Source of the DNA: an uncultured Bacteroidota bacterium
GTDB taxonomy: Bacteria; Bacteroidota; Bacteroidia; Chitinophagales; Chitinophagaceae
DNA length: 64,000 nt
NCBI GenBank assembly: GCA_903837525.1
Contig: CAILUU010000022.1
Location: forward strand, 1 to 64,000
Direction of reading: 5' to 3'
Positions 4,501 through 28,868 of the stretch are shown in pieces; within the stretch, counting starts at the first letter, position 1, and each line of letters begins with the position of its first letter. Position numbers and translations under genes: made by a program. The notes under the pieces are model-generated. The model saw nothing but the letters and a program-made list of their open reading frames with translations, was not told where the DNA came from and ran no database searches.

Positions 4501-4851
4501 TTAGTTTTTCTTAAGTGCTTCTTTCATTTTATCAACAGCACCTTCCATTTTAGCTTTCATTTTCTCAGTACTAGCTTTCATTTTATCAACAGCACCTTCC
4601 ATTTTAGCTTTCATTGAATCAATCATTGGAGATGCAGTAGCAGCTTTAATTTTATCAACAGCACCTTCCATTTTAGCTTTCATTGAATCAATCATTGGAG
4701 ATGCAGTAGCAGCTTTAATAGAATCAGCTACAAATTCAGCTCTTACAGAATCAGCAGTTGCTTTATCAGCGGCTTCTTTTTTAGCAGCTTCTTCGTTGTT
4801 ACAAGCTGTTAATAAACCAGCTACAGCAATAATTGCAAATAATTTTTTCAT
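4501..4851 (-). CDS. Small repeat-containing lipoprotein
   Basis: MKKLFAIIAVAGLLTACNNEE lipobox; two 23-aa repeats IKAATASPMIDSMKAKMEGAVDK plus a partial third; terminator downstream. Confidence 0.8.
   Translation of the reverse strand: MKKLFAIIAVAGLLTACNNEEAAKKEAADKATADSVRAEFVADSIKAATASPMIDSMKAKMEGAVDKIKAATASPMIDSMKAKMEGAVDKMKASTEKMKAKMEGAVDKMKEALKKN
4582..4719 (-). repeat. 69-bp in-frame tandem repeat (2 copies) inside the lipoprotein gene
   Basis: TTTATCAACAGCACC... starts at 4582 and again at 4651 (period 69 bp); partial copy at 4528..4560. Confidence 0.85.
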
Positions 4852-4923: not shown

Positions 4924-5002
4924 AAGGGTTGAAGGGTTTAGGGGTTTAGGGGTTTAGAGGGTTTAGAGGGTTTAGGGGTTTATAAGGTTTAGTGATTTAG
5001 GG
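4924..5002. repeat. Degenerate GGGTTTAG-type tandem repeat
   Basis: gaagggtttaggggtttaggggtttagagggtttagagggtttaggggttt... Confidence 0.85.
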
Positions 5003-5025
5003 TTACCTTGTACCGCTCAATATTT

Positions 5026-5137
5026 GCCAACTGCCAACTGCCAACTGCCAACTGCCAACTGCCAACTGCCAACTGCCAACTGCCAACTGCCAACTGCCAA
5101 CTGCCAACTGCCAACTGCCAACTGCTTACTGCTTACT
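5026..5137. repeat. Heptamer microsatellite (GCCAACT)14 + (GCTTACT)2
   Basis: 14 perfect 7-bp units 5026..5123, then two GCTTACT variants to 5137, overlapping the der stop codon (5133..5135). Confidence 0.95.
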
Positions 5138-6446
5138 TCTTTCTAAAAAATATACGAATGGGCACACCCTTTAAATTAAAGTGTTCTCTTAACTGATTTT
5201 CGAGGTAGTTTTTATACGGTGTTTTAATATCATCGGGGTAATTACAGAAAAATGCAAAGGTTGGTGTATGTACCGGTAACTGTGTTATGTATTTAATTTT
5301 TACTTGGTTGCCACGCACCACTGGGGGATGATAGGATTCAATTGCTTTTAATAAAATATCGTTTAGTTTGCTTGTAGGTATTTTTTGCACTCTATTCTCG
5401 TACACCTGCAAGGCTGCTTCTATACTTTGAAAAATACGTTGCTTTTCGGTTACCGAAATAAATACAATGGGCACATCATTAAAGGGTGCCAAGCGTTGCT
5501 TTAATTCTTTTTCGTAATCTTTTGCGGTATTCGTTTTTTTATCTTCTATTAAATCCCATTTATTTACCAATACGACTAACCCTTTGCCTTTTTTTTCTGC
5601 AAGGGAATAAATAGCTAAATCTTGTGCGGTAATGCCTTTACCAGCATCTATCAATAGCATACAAACATCTGCCTCGTCCAAGGCTTTTATAGCACGTATT
5701 ACGCTATAAAATTCAAGGTCTTCATTTACTTTATTTTTACGCCTAATACCTGCGGTATCTATCAACACAAAATCTTTATTGTATAAATTGTAACGGGTAT
5801 GTATGGTATCTCTTGTGGTGCCGGCTATGTTACTTACAATAGTTCTCTCCTGCCCTATTAAGGCATTTAGTAAAGATGATTTACCTACATTTGGTTGACC
5901 AATAATGGCAAACTTTGGGAGTCCTGCTAATTCATCATTAACAGAATCATCTTCCTTCATACTATCTGTAATGGCATCTAAAATTTCGCCAGTACCACTG
6001 CCACTAATACTCGAAACAAAAAAGATATGTTCAAACCCAAGGCTATAAAATTCGCTTGCTTCTAACAAGCGCTCATGATTATCTACTTTATTTACTACTA
6101 AAAAAACGGGCTTTGTGCTTCTACGCAACATGTGAGCCATATTTTCATCTAACTCAATGATACCAGTAGCAGCATCTACCATAAAAATTATGGCATTGGC
6201 TTCTTCAATGGCAATCATTACTTGCTTTGCAATTTCTTTTTCAAACACATCATCGCTACCGCTTACAAAGCCGCCTGTATCAATTACATTAAATTGCTTA
6301 CCTGCCCAATCGGCTACGCCGTATTGCCTATCTCTGGTTACACCACTTACATCATCTACAATGGCTTTGCGTTGCTCTAGCAAACGATTAAAGAATGTGC
6401 TTTTGCCCACATTTGGCCTACCTGTTATTGCTACTGTAAAACTCAT
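5133..6446 (-). CDS. der: Ribosome biogenesis GTPase Der (EngA)
   Basis: Two GTPase domains ([18 protein letters not shown]) and C-terminal KH-like region ending [11 protein letters not shown]. Confidence 0.95.
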
Positions 6447-6451
6447 GGTGC

Positions 6452-6486
6452 AGTTGGCGGTTGGCAGTTTGCAGTTGGCAGTCTGT
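6452..6486. repeat. Heptamer repeats AGTTGGC/GGTTGGC/AGTTTGC (reverse orientation)
   Basis: AGTTGGC GGTTGGC AGTTTGC AGTTGGC AGTCTGT, starting 6 bp before the der ATG. Confidence 0.85.
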
Positions 6487-6893: not shown

Positions 6894-6965
6894 TTTTTAA
6901 AAATTGGCAATTTACAAACTGCATATTTTGATTGTTAAATAGTAACTTTATCTCGCAAAAAATTT

Positions 6966-6994
6966 GCCCACTGCCCACTGCCCACTGCCCAACT
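6966..6994. repeat. Heptamer repeats (GCCCACT)3 + GCCCAACT
   Basis: gcccactgcccactgcccactgcccaact, overlapping the era stop codon (6993..6995). Confidence 0.9.
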
Positions 6995-17014: not shown

Positions 17015-17488
17015 ATGCAACTACAATTTTGGAGTATTGGTAAAAAAAATGAGGCTTACGTAGCAGAAGGGATTGCCCTTTTTACAAAACGAATAAGCCA
17101 TTATTACAAAGTAGAATGGAAAATAATTGCTACCACAAAAAATTCAGCAGTATTAAGTGCAGAAGATTTAAAAATTGAAGAAGGAAAAATCATCCTCAAT
17201 AATCTACAAAAGGATGATTATTTAATTTTGCTAGATGAACGAGGCAAAAACTTACAGAGCGAAGAGTTAGCCAAAGTTTTACAAAAAAGAAATAACGATA
17301 GCACAAAACAAGTTATTTTTTTAATTGGTGGTGCTTTTGGAGTAAGTGATGAAGTAATAAAAAGAGCAAATTTTAAATGGAGTTTATCTAATTTAGTTTT
17401 CCCTCATCAATTAGTAAGACTTATCTTAGCGGAGCAAGTGTATAGGGCTTGTACCATAAATAAAAACGAAAAATACCATCATGTGTAA
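17015..17488 (+). CDS. rlmH: 23S rRNA (pseudouridine1915-N3)-methyltransferase RlmH
   Basis: MQLQFWSIGK... FLIGGAFGVSDEVIKRANFKWSLSNLVFPHQLVRLILAEQVYRA; start moved from 16997 to 17015. Confidence 0.93.
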   Translation: MQLQFWSIGKKNEAYVAEGIALFTKRISHYYKVEWKIIATTKNSAVLSAEDLKIEEGKIILNNLQKDDYLILLDERGKNLQSEELAKVLQKRNNDSTKQVIFLIGGAFGVSDEVIKRANFKWSLSNLVFPHQLVRLILAEQVYRACTINKNEKYHHV

Positions 17489-17523
17489 TGTACATTGTAA
17501 GATGTACGATTTAAAAATATTTT

Positions 17524-18147
17524 ATGAACGATTTTGCTCAATTTCCAGTAACCTTTACAATTATAGGTATTACAGTTTTAATTTCTTTTATTGCATTTAA
17601 CAATGCAGCTTTAAGGAACAAAGCATTATTTTATCCTTATGGTATGCAAGGTGGATTTAAGCAATATTATAGATTTTTAAGCCATGGCTTTATTCATGCT
17701 GATTATATCCATTTATTCTTCAACATGTTTACCTTATATCAATTTGGTAGATTAGCAGAAGTTATTCTTTTTAATAAAACGCAATACATATTATTATACC
17801 TAACTGCATTGGTAGCTTCGTCTCTTTTTGATTTTGTAAAACAAAAAAATAACAGCGGCTATGCTGCGTTGGGTGCATCTGGTGCAGTTTCAGCGGTATT
17901 ATTTGCATCTATCATTCTAGGCCCATGGGATATTGGTGTGGCAATCTTTGGCGTATTACCTCTACCAAATATAATATTTGCAGTACTTTATTTAGTGTAT
18001 TGCGCCTACATGGATAAACGTGGCGGTGATAATATTGGTCATGGTGCACATTTATGGGGCAGTGTTTGGGGTTTTGTATTTACCGCTTTGGTTAGGCCCG
18101 ATTTATTTAAAGGCTTTTTAGAAAAACTTATGAATCCAAATTTTTAA
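17524..18147 (+). CDS. Rhomboid family intramembrane serine protease
   Basis: SHGFIHADYIHLFFNMFTLYQFG, GASGAVSAVLFASI. Confidence 0.92.
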   Translation: MNDFAQFPVTFTIIGITVLISFIAFNNAALRNKALFYPYGMQGGFKQYYRFLSHGFIHADYIHLFFNMFTLYQFGRLAEVILFNKTQYILLYLTALVASSLFDFVKQKNNSGYAALGASGAVSAVLFASIILGPWDIGVAIFGVLPLPNIIFAVLYLVYCAYMDKRGGDNIGHGAHLWGSVWGFVFTALVRPDLFKGFLEKLMNPNF

Positions 18148-19486
18148 ACCTTACTTCCAAAACCTCCCTCGTATTTGCTGTAATTTTAAAACGATCATCA
18201 ATACGCATACCCACTACCCAGATTATTTTTTTATTACTTTCTAGTACCCAAATATTTTCTTTTTGTGTAAGCGATAATTTGTTATCGATAAAAAAGCGAC
18301 TAAGTTTTTTCTTATGCTTCATGCCTAACGGATAAAAATAATCGCCTTGTTTCCATTTTCGGAGTAACAAGGGAAAAGTTATTTTTGAAGCATCTAATTG
18401 AATGTCGAATTTTGAATTCTGAATGTCGAATTTTGAATTTAACTCAAGCTCAAGCTCTCCGTTTTCAAAGCTAATTTTTTTATCCCCTTCTTCAATTAAA
18501 ATAGTAACGGCTTCGTTTGTATTTTTTGGGGAGATGATTAACCATTTTCTATTCCGGATTATTCTGTGGGTAGATGATTGAATATACTTTCCGCTATCGG
18601 CTTGTAGTAAATTAACAATATCGGTTGTTTGCAATGCTGTAAAACCAAAATCTTTTACAATTTCGTACACAATAGTTTGCAATGGTTTTGCTTTTGCTAA
18701 TTTTAAAACAGGTATATGCACTTCGTTACCTTTTAATACACACAGCTTATTTTTATGCAAAGTAATAGCTTGGTTATACAATACCTCTACATCAATAAAT
18801 CGATTAATGTTTTGCAAACTATTTTCCTCAGCTTGTGGAAATATTTTTTGAATAGCGGGTATTATGTCGTTTCTAAAATAATTACGAGTATACTCGTTTC
18901 GTGCATTGGTACTATCGGTTACAAAAGCTAGATTATTTTCAGTTGAAAAATTTTCAATCTCACTTCTTTTAGCAAATAAAAGTGGACGAATAATTTTCTG
19001 TTGTTTTGGCAAAATACCTCGTAACCCTTTTATACCAGTACCTCTAAAAAAATTCATAAGCACTGTTTCTATATTATCGTTGGCATGGTGAGCCGTTAAG
19101 ATGTACGATGTTTGATATAAACCATTTTGAATATTGAATTTTGAATGTTGAATTTCCTTAAACCATTCGTATCGCAAATCTCTTGCTGTTTCCTCAATAG
19201 ATGTTTTTCGGTTTTTAACTTCTTCGGTTGTATTAAATGTTTGGCTATAAAATTCTACATTATATTTTACGGCTAATTCTTTTACAAAGTTTTCATCTCT
19301 ATCACTCTCGGCTCCTCTTAATTTAAAGTTGCAATGAGCAATAGAAAAATTGTAACCAGCTTGGTGGCAAAGTTCACATAACACCACACTATCTACACCA
19401 CCACTTACAGCAAGTAGCAATTTATCTTTTTGGTTAAAAAGATGATGTTGTTTTATGTATTGTTGAAAGTTGCTCAATAAGGACAT
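18128..19486 (-). CDS. tilS: tRNA(Ile)-lysidine synthetase TilS
   Basis: LAVSGGVDSVVL PP-loop, LTAHHANDNIETVLMNFFRGTGIKGLRGI; start preferred at MSLLSNFQ. Confidence 0.93.
   Translation of the reverse strand: MSLLSNFQQYIKQHHLFNQKDKLLLAVSGGVDSVVLCELCHQAGYNFSIAHCNFKLRGAESDRDENFVKELAVKYNVEFYSQTFNTTEEVKNRKTSIEETARDLRYEWFKEIQHSKFNIQNGLYQTSYILTAHHANDNIETVLMNFFRGTGIKGLRGILPKQQKIIRPLLFAKRSEIENFSTENNLAFVTDSTNARNEYTRNYFRNDIIPAIQKIFPQAEENSLQNINRFIDVEVLYNQAITLHKNKLCVLKGNEVHIPVLKLAKAKPLQTIVYEIVKDFGFTALQTTDIVNLLQADSGKYIQSSTHRIIRNRKWLIISPKNTNEAVTILIEEGDKKISFENGELELELNSKFDIQNSKFDIQLDASKITFPLLLRKWKQGDYFYPLGMKHKKKLSRFFIDNKLSLTQKENIWVLESNKKIIWVVGMRIDDRFKITANTREVLEVRFKNLDS
18400..18441. repeat. 21-bp in-frame tandem duplication inside tilS
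   Basis: GAATGTCGAATTTTGAATTCT / GAATGTCGAATTTTGAATTTA; encodes NSKFDIQ-NSKFDIQ on the minus strand. Confidence 0.9.
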
Positions 19487-19540
19487 AACGCTTTTTCTAC
19501 TTAGATTTAGTTTTAAAATGAATAGCATTTGCTACAATAT

Positions 19541-28076: not shown

Positions 28077-28205
28077 AATTTATTTCGCTGTTTAAAGTAA
28101 CAGGAACTACTATGGAGAAAGTAATATAAAAATGTGCAATTAATTTTGCACATTTTACTTTGTATAACTTTGTTATTATTTGCCAATGAGGAAAAAACAA
28201 CAAAT

Positions 28206-28868
28206 ATGCCAATACACATAGAAAAATATAAACAAATATTTATCGACCTTAATGGTAAAGCTACATTAATTGCAGTAAGCAAAACCAAACCGATAGAAGA
28301 TATACAAGCCTTATACGATTTGGGACAACGAGATTTTGGAGAAAATTATGTGCAAGAATTAGTAGATAAATACGTAAAACTACCCAAAGATATTCGCTGG
28401 CATTTTATTGGTCATTTACAAAGCAATAAAGTAAAATACATAGCCCCATTTGTACATTTAATACATGGGGTTGATAGTTTGAGTTTATTGAAAGAAATAA
28501 ACAAACAAGGGTTAAAAAATAACCGCATTATTGATTGCCTCTTGCAGATACATATTGCTAAAGAAGAAACAAAGTTTGGATTAAATAGTGATGAACTAGA
28601 GGCTGTTTTAACCGGCGAACTTTCTGTATTAAAAAATATCAGCATTACCGGGTTAATGGGTATGGCATCATTTTCAACCAATATAGATTTAGTTAGAGCA
28701 GAATTTAACTATCTCAAAAGCCTCTTTGTTAAATACACTCCATTGCAAACTGCAAACTGCAAACTGCAAATTCTCTCCATGGGTATGAGTAGCGATTATA
28801 AAATAGCTATAGAAGAGGGAAGTAATATGATACGGATAGGCAGCTTATTATTTGGTGAAAGAAAGTAA
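28206..28868 (+). CDS. YggS family PLP-binding homeostasis protein
   Basis: LIAVSKTKPIEDIQALYDLGQRDFGENYVQEL; WHFIGHLQSNKVKYI; LSMGMSSDYKIAIEEGSNMIRIGSLLFG. Start at MPIHIEKY. Confidence 0.92.
   Translation: MPIHIEKYKQIFIDLNGKATLIAVSKTKPIEDIQALYDLGQRDFGENYVQELVDKYVKLPKDIRWHFIGHLQSNKVKYIAPFVHLIHGVDSLSLLKEINKQGLKNNRIIDCLLQIHIAKEETKFGLNSDELEAVLTGELSVLKNISITGLMGMASFSTNIDLVRAEFNYLKSLFVKYTPLQTANCKLQILSMGMSSDYKIAIEEGSNMIRIGSLLFGERK
28745..28772. repeat. (GCAAACT)3 + GCAAATT heptamer repeat inside yggS
   Basis: gcaaactgcaaactgcaaactgcaaatt, encoding QTANCKLQ. Confidence 0.9.

Follow-up and report, generated by a model that had tools for sequence, protein, structure and literature searches.

Background

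Short-unit satellites are known in bacteria (PMC6749651), and direct repeats of the heptanucleotide TAACTGA have been described in Beggiatoaceae, Cyanobacteria and some Bacteroidetes (MacGregor 2015, PMC4679880), where some intergenic regions carry other heptamers beside TAACTGA (PMC4679880). Like the tilS arrays reported here, TAACTGA repeats are dispersed 7-base direct repeats, mostly intergenic, and present in some ORFs in a stop-free orientation (PMC4679880). They feature, however, one dominant unit, are often located just upstream of start codons and, when found in ORFs, mainly occupy protein ends (PMC4679880), whereas the family described here has many units and recurrently occupies interior loops of core enzymes. 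At the locus under study, site A of tilS, the unit is ATTCAAN rather than TAACTGA.

Heptameric simple sequence repeats of the GGGAATC type have been reported in Xanthomonas and Nostoc (Rehm 2015, PMC4692102). They too form heptamer arrays dispersed in the genome, but are G-rich, quadruplex-forming and under-represented in coding sequences (PMC4692102), while the present arrays are rich in A+T and frequent in coding loops. The tandem repeats of Borgs, like the present arrays, are found both in intergenic DNA and in ORFs, where they yield peptide repeats; in ORFs they are perfect and of a length divisible by three (PMC9879509), in contrast to the present arrays, which are imperfect, with a 7-base unit cycling through the three frames. 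Site A, with its unit of 7 and its imperfect copies, is accordingly not of the Borg type.

Rickettsia palindromic elements are longer, palindromic repeats, inserted in frame within housekeeping genes. Site A shares with them the in-frame insertion in a housekeeping gene, but is a short array of direct tandem repeats, roughly 30 bases in length, and not a long palindrome. While heptamer repeats in bacteria are known, the variety of units and their repeated use, in frame, of the same interior core-enzyme loops appear to be new: a search of open-licence full texts returned no earlier account of in-frame arrays recurring in the same core-enzyme loops.

The array at site A of tilS

The tilS gene and its first array are located as follows, within the window, i.e. 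the whole stretch of 64,000 nucleotides analysed:

18128..19489, minus strand: tilS, tRNA(Ile)-lysidine synthase, identified by Pfam, solved structures and an alignment of 80 relatives
19124..19153, minus strand: site A heptamer array, sense ATTCAAC ATTCAAA ATTCAAT ATTCAAA AT, in frame

Both the PP-loop ATPase domain and the TilS C-terminal domain are present (Pfam ATP_bind_3, 163.9 bits; TilS_C, 38.5 bits), and the protein matches the solved TilS structures 1wy5, 3a2k and 1ni5. The start at 19489 is backed by homologs; another in-frame ATG is found upstream, at 19528.

Site A is an imperfect tandem array of four ATTCAAN units within the tilS reading frame, in the sense-strand context GAA ATTCAAC ATTCAAA ATTCAAT ATTCAAA ATG. 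Read on the minus strand, 19124..19153 encodes IQHSKFNIQN; the translation of the array, EIQHSKFNIQNG, is flanked by ARDLRYEWFK and YILTAHHANDNIETV. Tandem Repeats Finder reports period 7 at 19127-19153, with 3.9 copies and 90% matches, together with a period-14 row at 19124-19155. At lag 7, 12 of 14 positions match (codon-shuffle p 0.005). The array thus has what distinguishes dispersed bacterial heptamer repeats: a 7-base unit, at least three copies, and a frequency of matches above chance. The DNA quoted in the original prediction for region 19122-19156 is present as given in the window sequence, and the in-frame insertion proposed there corresponds to this four-unit array, which adds 8 residues; the 7-base tandem period and the genome-wide and family-wide extent of the arrays were not part of that prediction.

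The span from RY to AHH measures 30 residues in the window TilS, versus exactly 22 in all TilS from outside the family (23/23); among 81 family members it ranges from 20 to 79 residues, and equals 22 in 26 of them. Relative to the solved TilS structures, the insert amounts to 8 residues. As the loop is shorter in each of the 23 TilS from outside the family, distant Bacteroidetes do not share the length found here, and the alignment, proposed beforehand as a check on indel length, shows the insertion to be real. The net gain of 24 bases is a multiple of neither 7 nor 21; array A therefore accompanied or replaced other bases, and this figure counts against reading site A as a dispersed satellite. 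In the sister species L030, TilS loops are equal in length to those of the window, with units decayed or changed. A search of the genus returned no very close pair of relatives with and without array A, the nearest TilS being 78% identical outside the loops; the insertion event at A is therefore not directly seen.

In the AlphaFold model of the window TilS (mean pLDDT 91), site A lies between helix 98-118 and strand 128-131, and is the least confident interior block. In PP-loop folds, helix-to-strand turns are located on the face opposite the nucleotide site.

Site B and neighbouring heptamers

A second array is present in tilS, in the beta-hairpin loop which, in the AlphaFold model, joins strands 344-351 and 362-366:

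18398..18440, minus strand: site B heptamer array, six units, Tandem Repeats Finder period 7, encoding NSKFDIQNSKFDIQ

It contains a perfect 21-base duplication (18399-18439, Tandem Repeats Finder) and matches at lag 7 in 11 of 14 positions (p 0.007). Heptamer-like DNA is found at site B in many relatives. The possibility that site B is a plain length insertion was rejected, as length varies little among relatives.

Insertions A and B had been predicted to be independent members of one word family. This is supported by the TilS tree, where their states change at different places; L032, close on the tree to the window TilS and to L030, features an array at B and a short, ancestral loop at A. 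For both reasons, A and B look like separate events.

Heptamers of a second kind are found beside site A and at lower window coordinates:

19100..19118, minus strand: possible short second heptamer array beside A, plus-strand GATGTAC GATGTTT GATAT, weak alone
17488..17515, plus strand: degenerate intergenic heptamer run, AATGTAC ATTGTAA GATGTAC GATTTAA, below the strict threshold

The former is expanded to three copies in L030, but in the window it could be due to chance on its own, because it overlaps the conserved codons Y-I-L. The latter is flanked by genes which, from their names assigned by eye, we take to be rlmH-like and rhomboid-like. The resemblance originally noticed between the word adjacent to A and the intergenic word at 17502..17512 holds in that both can be read as degenerate heptamers of this second kind, with the reservation that the tilS copy may be accidental. 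A strict GATGTAC array is located elsewhere in the window's genome (L150:15916-15948).

Period seven in tilS and other genes of relatives

When the 38 TilS with a long loop are analyzed together, lag-7 autocorrelation at site A is 0.41, versus 0.26 after codon shuffling, and harmonics are seen at lag 14 (0.36) and lag 21 (0.35); in the 43 TilS with a short loop it is 0.28, with no period signal. Strict lag-7 arrays are present in 14 species at A and in 10 at B, within the TilS set; for lags 4, 5, 8, 10 and 11, no more than 3 species per lag have a strict array anywhere in the tilS gene.

In the 80 relatives, 28 arrays are located in tilS (111 kb), none in the adjoining coding DNA (353 kb) and 28 in intergenic DNA. 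Two other genes, each analyzed in 30 species, behave similarly to tilS: PyrD features 18 arrays, mainly in the loop preceding IIGGNIG, and ValS 13 arrays, over four loops, with no arrays in either set at lags 4, 5, 8, 10 and 11. On a wider scale, among 148 genomes sampled phylum-wide, 32 contain the three-copy ATTCAAA word of the window's genome, where the mirrored control has almost no matches; within the family, AACTGCC arrays are present in 17 genomes out of 120, being abundant in a few. In two family members, G007 and G017, about 80 kb are free of strict arrays.

Arrays in the window and in its genome

From the window's genome, a sample of 361 kb contains 34 period-7 arrays (19 coding, 15 intergenic), a count to be referred to a biased sample, since contigs with word matches were partly chosen. 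For any other period from 4 to 12, the same sample contains at most 5 arrays, so that period 7 is the sole abundant tandem class. In-frame arrays are hosted, among others, by TilS, ValS (3), PyrD (4), ArgS, LpxB, pyruvate dehydrogenase E2 and a YggS-like protein; hosts other than TilS were named by eye from their sequences, and are presumably what these names indicate. Two hosts with several arrays, and the arrays found in the window outside tilS, are:

L145:10891-11973, minus strand: PyrD-like gene of the window's genome, four heptamer arrays, all in frame, from three unit families
L143:1069-3768, minus strand: ValS-like gene of the window's genome, three in-frame heptamer arrays
5022..5144, plus strand: perfect intergenic heptamer array TGCCAAC, 14.4 copies (Tandem Repeats Finder)
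6453..6482, plus strand: intergenic heptamer array GCAGTTG, reverse complement of the AACTGCC family
6963..6993, plus strand: intergenic heptamer array TGCCCAC (Tandem Repeats Finder)
28741..28773, plus strand: in-frame heptamer array TGCAAAC, peptide PLQTANCKLQIL, in a YggS/PLP-homeostasis-like gene

The gene hosting the last array, at 28134-28865, also owes its presumed identity to inspection by eye.

Beside this sample, word searches covered the whole genome. The site A 20-mer has 22 forward and 7 reverse matches, versus 2 and 1 for the mirrored control, all counts including overlapping registers; the 20-mer exceeds chance, and the repeat at site A recurs, like other heptameric simple sequence repeats, at unlinked loci of the genome. 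The looser word used in the original prediction fared less well: it is mildly enriched, but with only 20 matches in the window, at two mismatches or fewer, versus 12.9 expected.

Unit turnover and sharing

Array presence, mapped on a TilS tree from which the loops were excluded and in which many inner branches are weakly supported, requires at least 14 changes at A and at least 13 at B. Units may differ completely between close relatives: the TilS of L035, L037 and L042, 80-83% identical, carry at site A the unrelated units AATTGCC, AATCAAC and CATTCAC, respectively.

Within genomes, in contrast to 1000 label permutations (mean 12.9, maximum 30), 33 pairs of identical units are found for 78 arrays from ten sampled genomes. 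For the window's genome alone, identical pairs are 18, versus 1.7 for letter-shuffled units. Such sharing could alternatively reflect a common mutational bias. Coding units are subject to filtering: the sense strand is stop-free for 73 of 84 of them, versus 24 of 63 intergenic ones. A single universal unit motif was also considered and rejected: no consensus unit is claimed, because the bias obtained by an EM search is only modest when compared to letter-shuffled units.

Origin and maintenance of the arrays

Tandem heptamers are located in frame, recurrently in few loops, with units differing among species and repeated within genomes. Site A is probably one of many dispersed short heptamer satellites, subject to fast turnover and surviving, in frame and stop-free, in permissive surface loops. 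Arrays would often arise, or be copied in, from a genome-specific set of units, forming a genome-wide pool; within genes, they would be lost unless located in a length-tolerant surface loop, free of stops and accompanied by a length change multiple of three. Permissive places would be the helix-to-strand connection at TilS site A, the beta-hairpin loop at site B, and the PyrD and ValS loops. The NSKFNIQ-type peptide is most probably without any role of its own, and TilS would remain active.

As to the origin of the arrays, we lean towards the acquisition, in a single step, of repeat DNA already formed at another locus, through ectopic copying or templated repair, and its subsequent decay by point mutation. 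A serious rival, although in our opinion rather unlikely, is local replication slippage, by which arrays would have grown in place from chance seeds, heptamers being favoured by some property of the replicative polymerase. Among repeat units of 5-11 bases, heptamers are described as the commonest in many bacterial genomes, and slippage has been suggested as their source (Mrazek 2007, as reported in PMC4679880). The perfect 21-base duplication at site B is the in-frame step expected from a three-unit slip, and in 8 of the 18 site A loops that carry an array, the excess over the baseline of 11 residues is 7k+1 residues, a weak, post hoc regularity counted by hand. Growth by single heptamers, however, would put a core gene out of frame at each step, and one site holds unrelated units in close relatives; for these two reasons one-step copying is favoured. 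That unlinked loci of one genome share identical units well in excess of permutations also argues against growth in place. A more specific version of copying, where the arrays of this branch of Bacteroidota are mobile satellites, each genome spreads a small unit set of its own, and TilS, PyrD and ValS loops are recurrent landing pads on which units supplant one another, all driven by a specific copying process, is doubtful. We regard as quite improbable a dedicated system, such as a reverse-transcriptase-like or recombination enzyme, making and inserting heptamer arrays: units are genome-specific yet recurrent, arrays are patchy among relatives, and units are non-random (4.3-5.1 bits per unit by EM, versus about 3.5 when letter-shuffled), but part of the unit motif is explained by composition bias, and inspection short of a systematic search revealed neither a boundary motif nor a target duplication nor a linked gene.

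The insert might also be an adaptive extension of TilS, its peptide being under selection, as the long loop is restricted to the family and present in many of its species. This is very improbable: peptides are wholly different among species, being dictated by the heptamer unit; the ancestral 22-residue span is kept in 26 of 81 family members; and the same site is taken by unrelated palindromic repeats. An assembly or binning artefact might be suspected, since the nearest relatives are metagenome-assembled genomes, but may be practically discounted: the reading frame is preserved across the array, the sister species L030 has loops of equal length, PyrD and ValS carry like arrays in G033, a single-contig genome, and the named isolate Segetibacter aerophilus (L053) features a long loop with period-7 runs, below the array threshold.

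The heptamer satellites described here amount to a natural repeated experiment, in which non-coding repeats turn into protein sequence despite the frame shift introduced by each 7-base unit. Since unrelated repeat words are found in the same core-enzyme loops of many species, the rise and spread of heptamers become testable, and array sites show where TilS, PyrD and ValS tolerate insertions.

Other repeats

Palindromic elements are found at the TilS loops of some relatives, at site A in L065, L072 and L282, and at site B in L102. The elements at site A of L065 (L065:3380-3393) and L282 are similar, of the CTCCCC..GGGG type. A different palindrome, CCCGATAGTTATCGGG, is located within the tilS loops of L072 (L072:319-334, at A) and L102 (L102:4113-4128, at B); the same word is also present at other loci, in L066, L232 and L234. 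In the window, a period-8/17 array, AGGGTTTAG, at 4925-5000, adjoins the (TGCCAAC)14 array, and the region 4521-4726, probably a repetitive stretch of coding DNA, contains repeats of 33 and 69 bases of the type CTTTCATT(T/G).ATCAACA.
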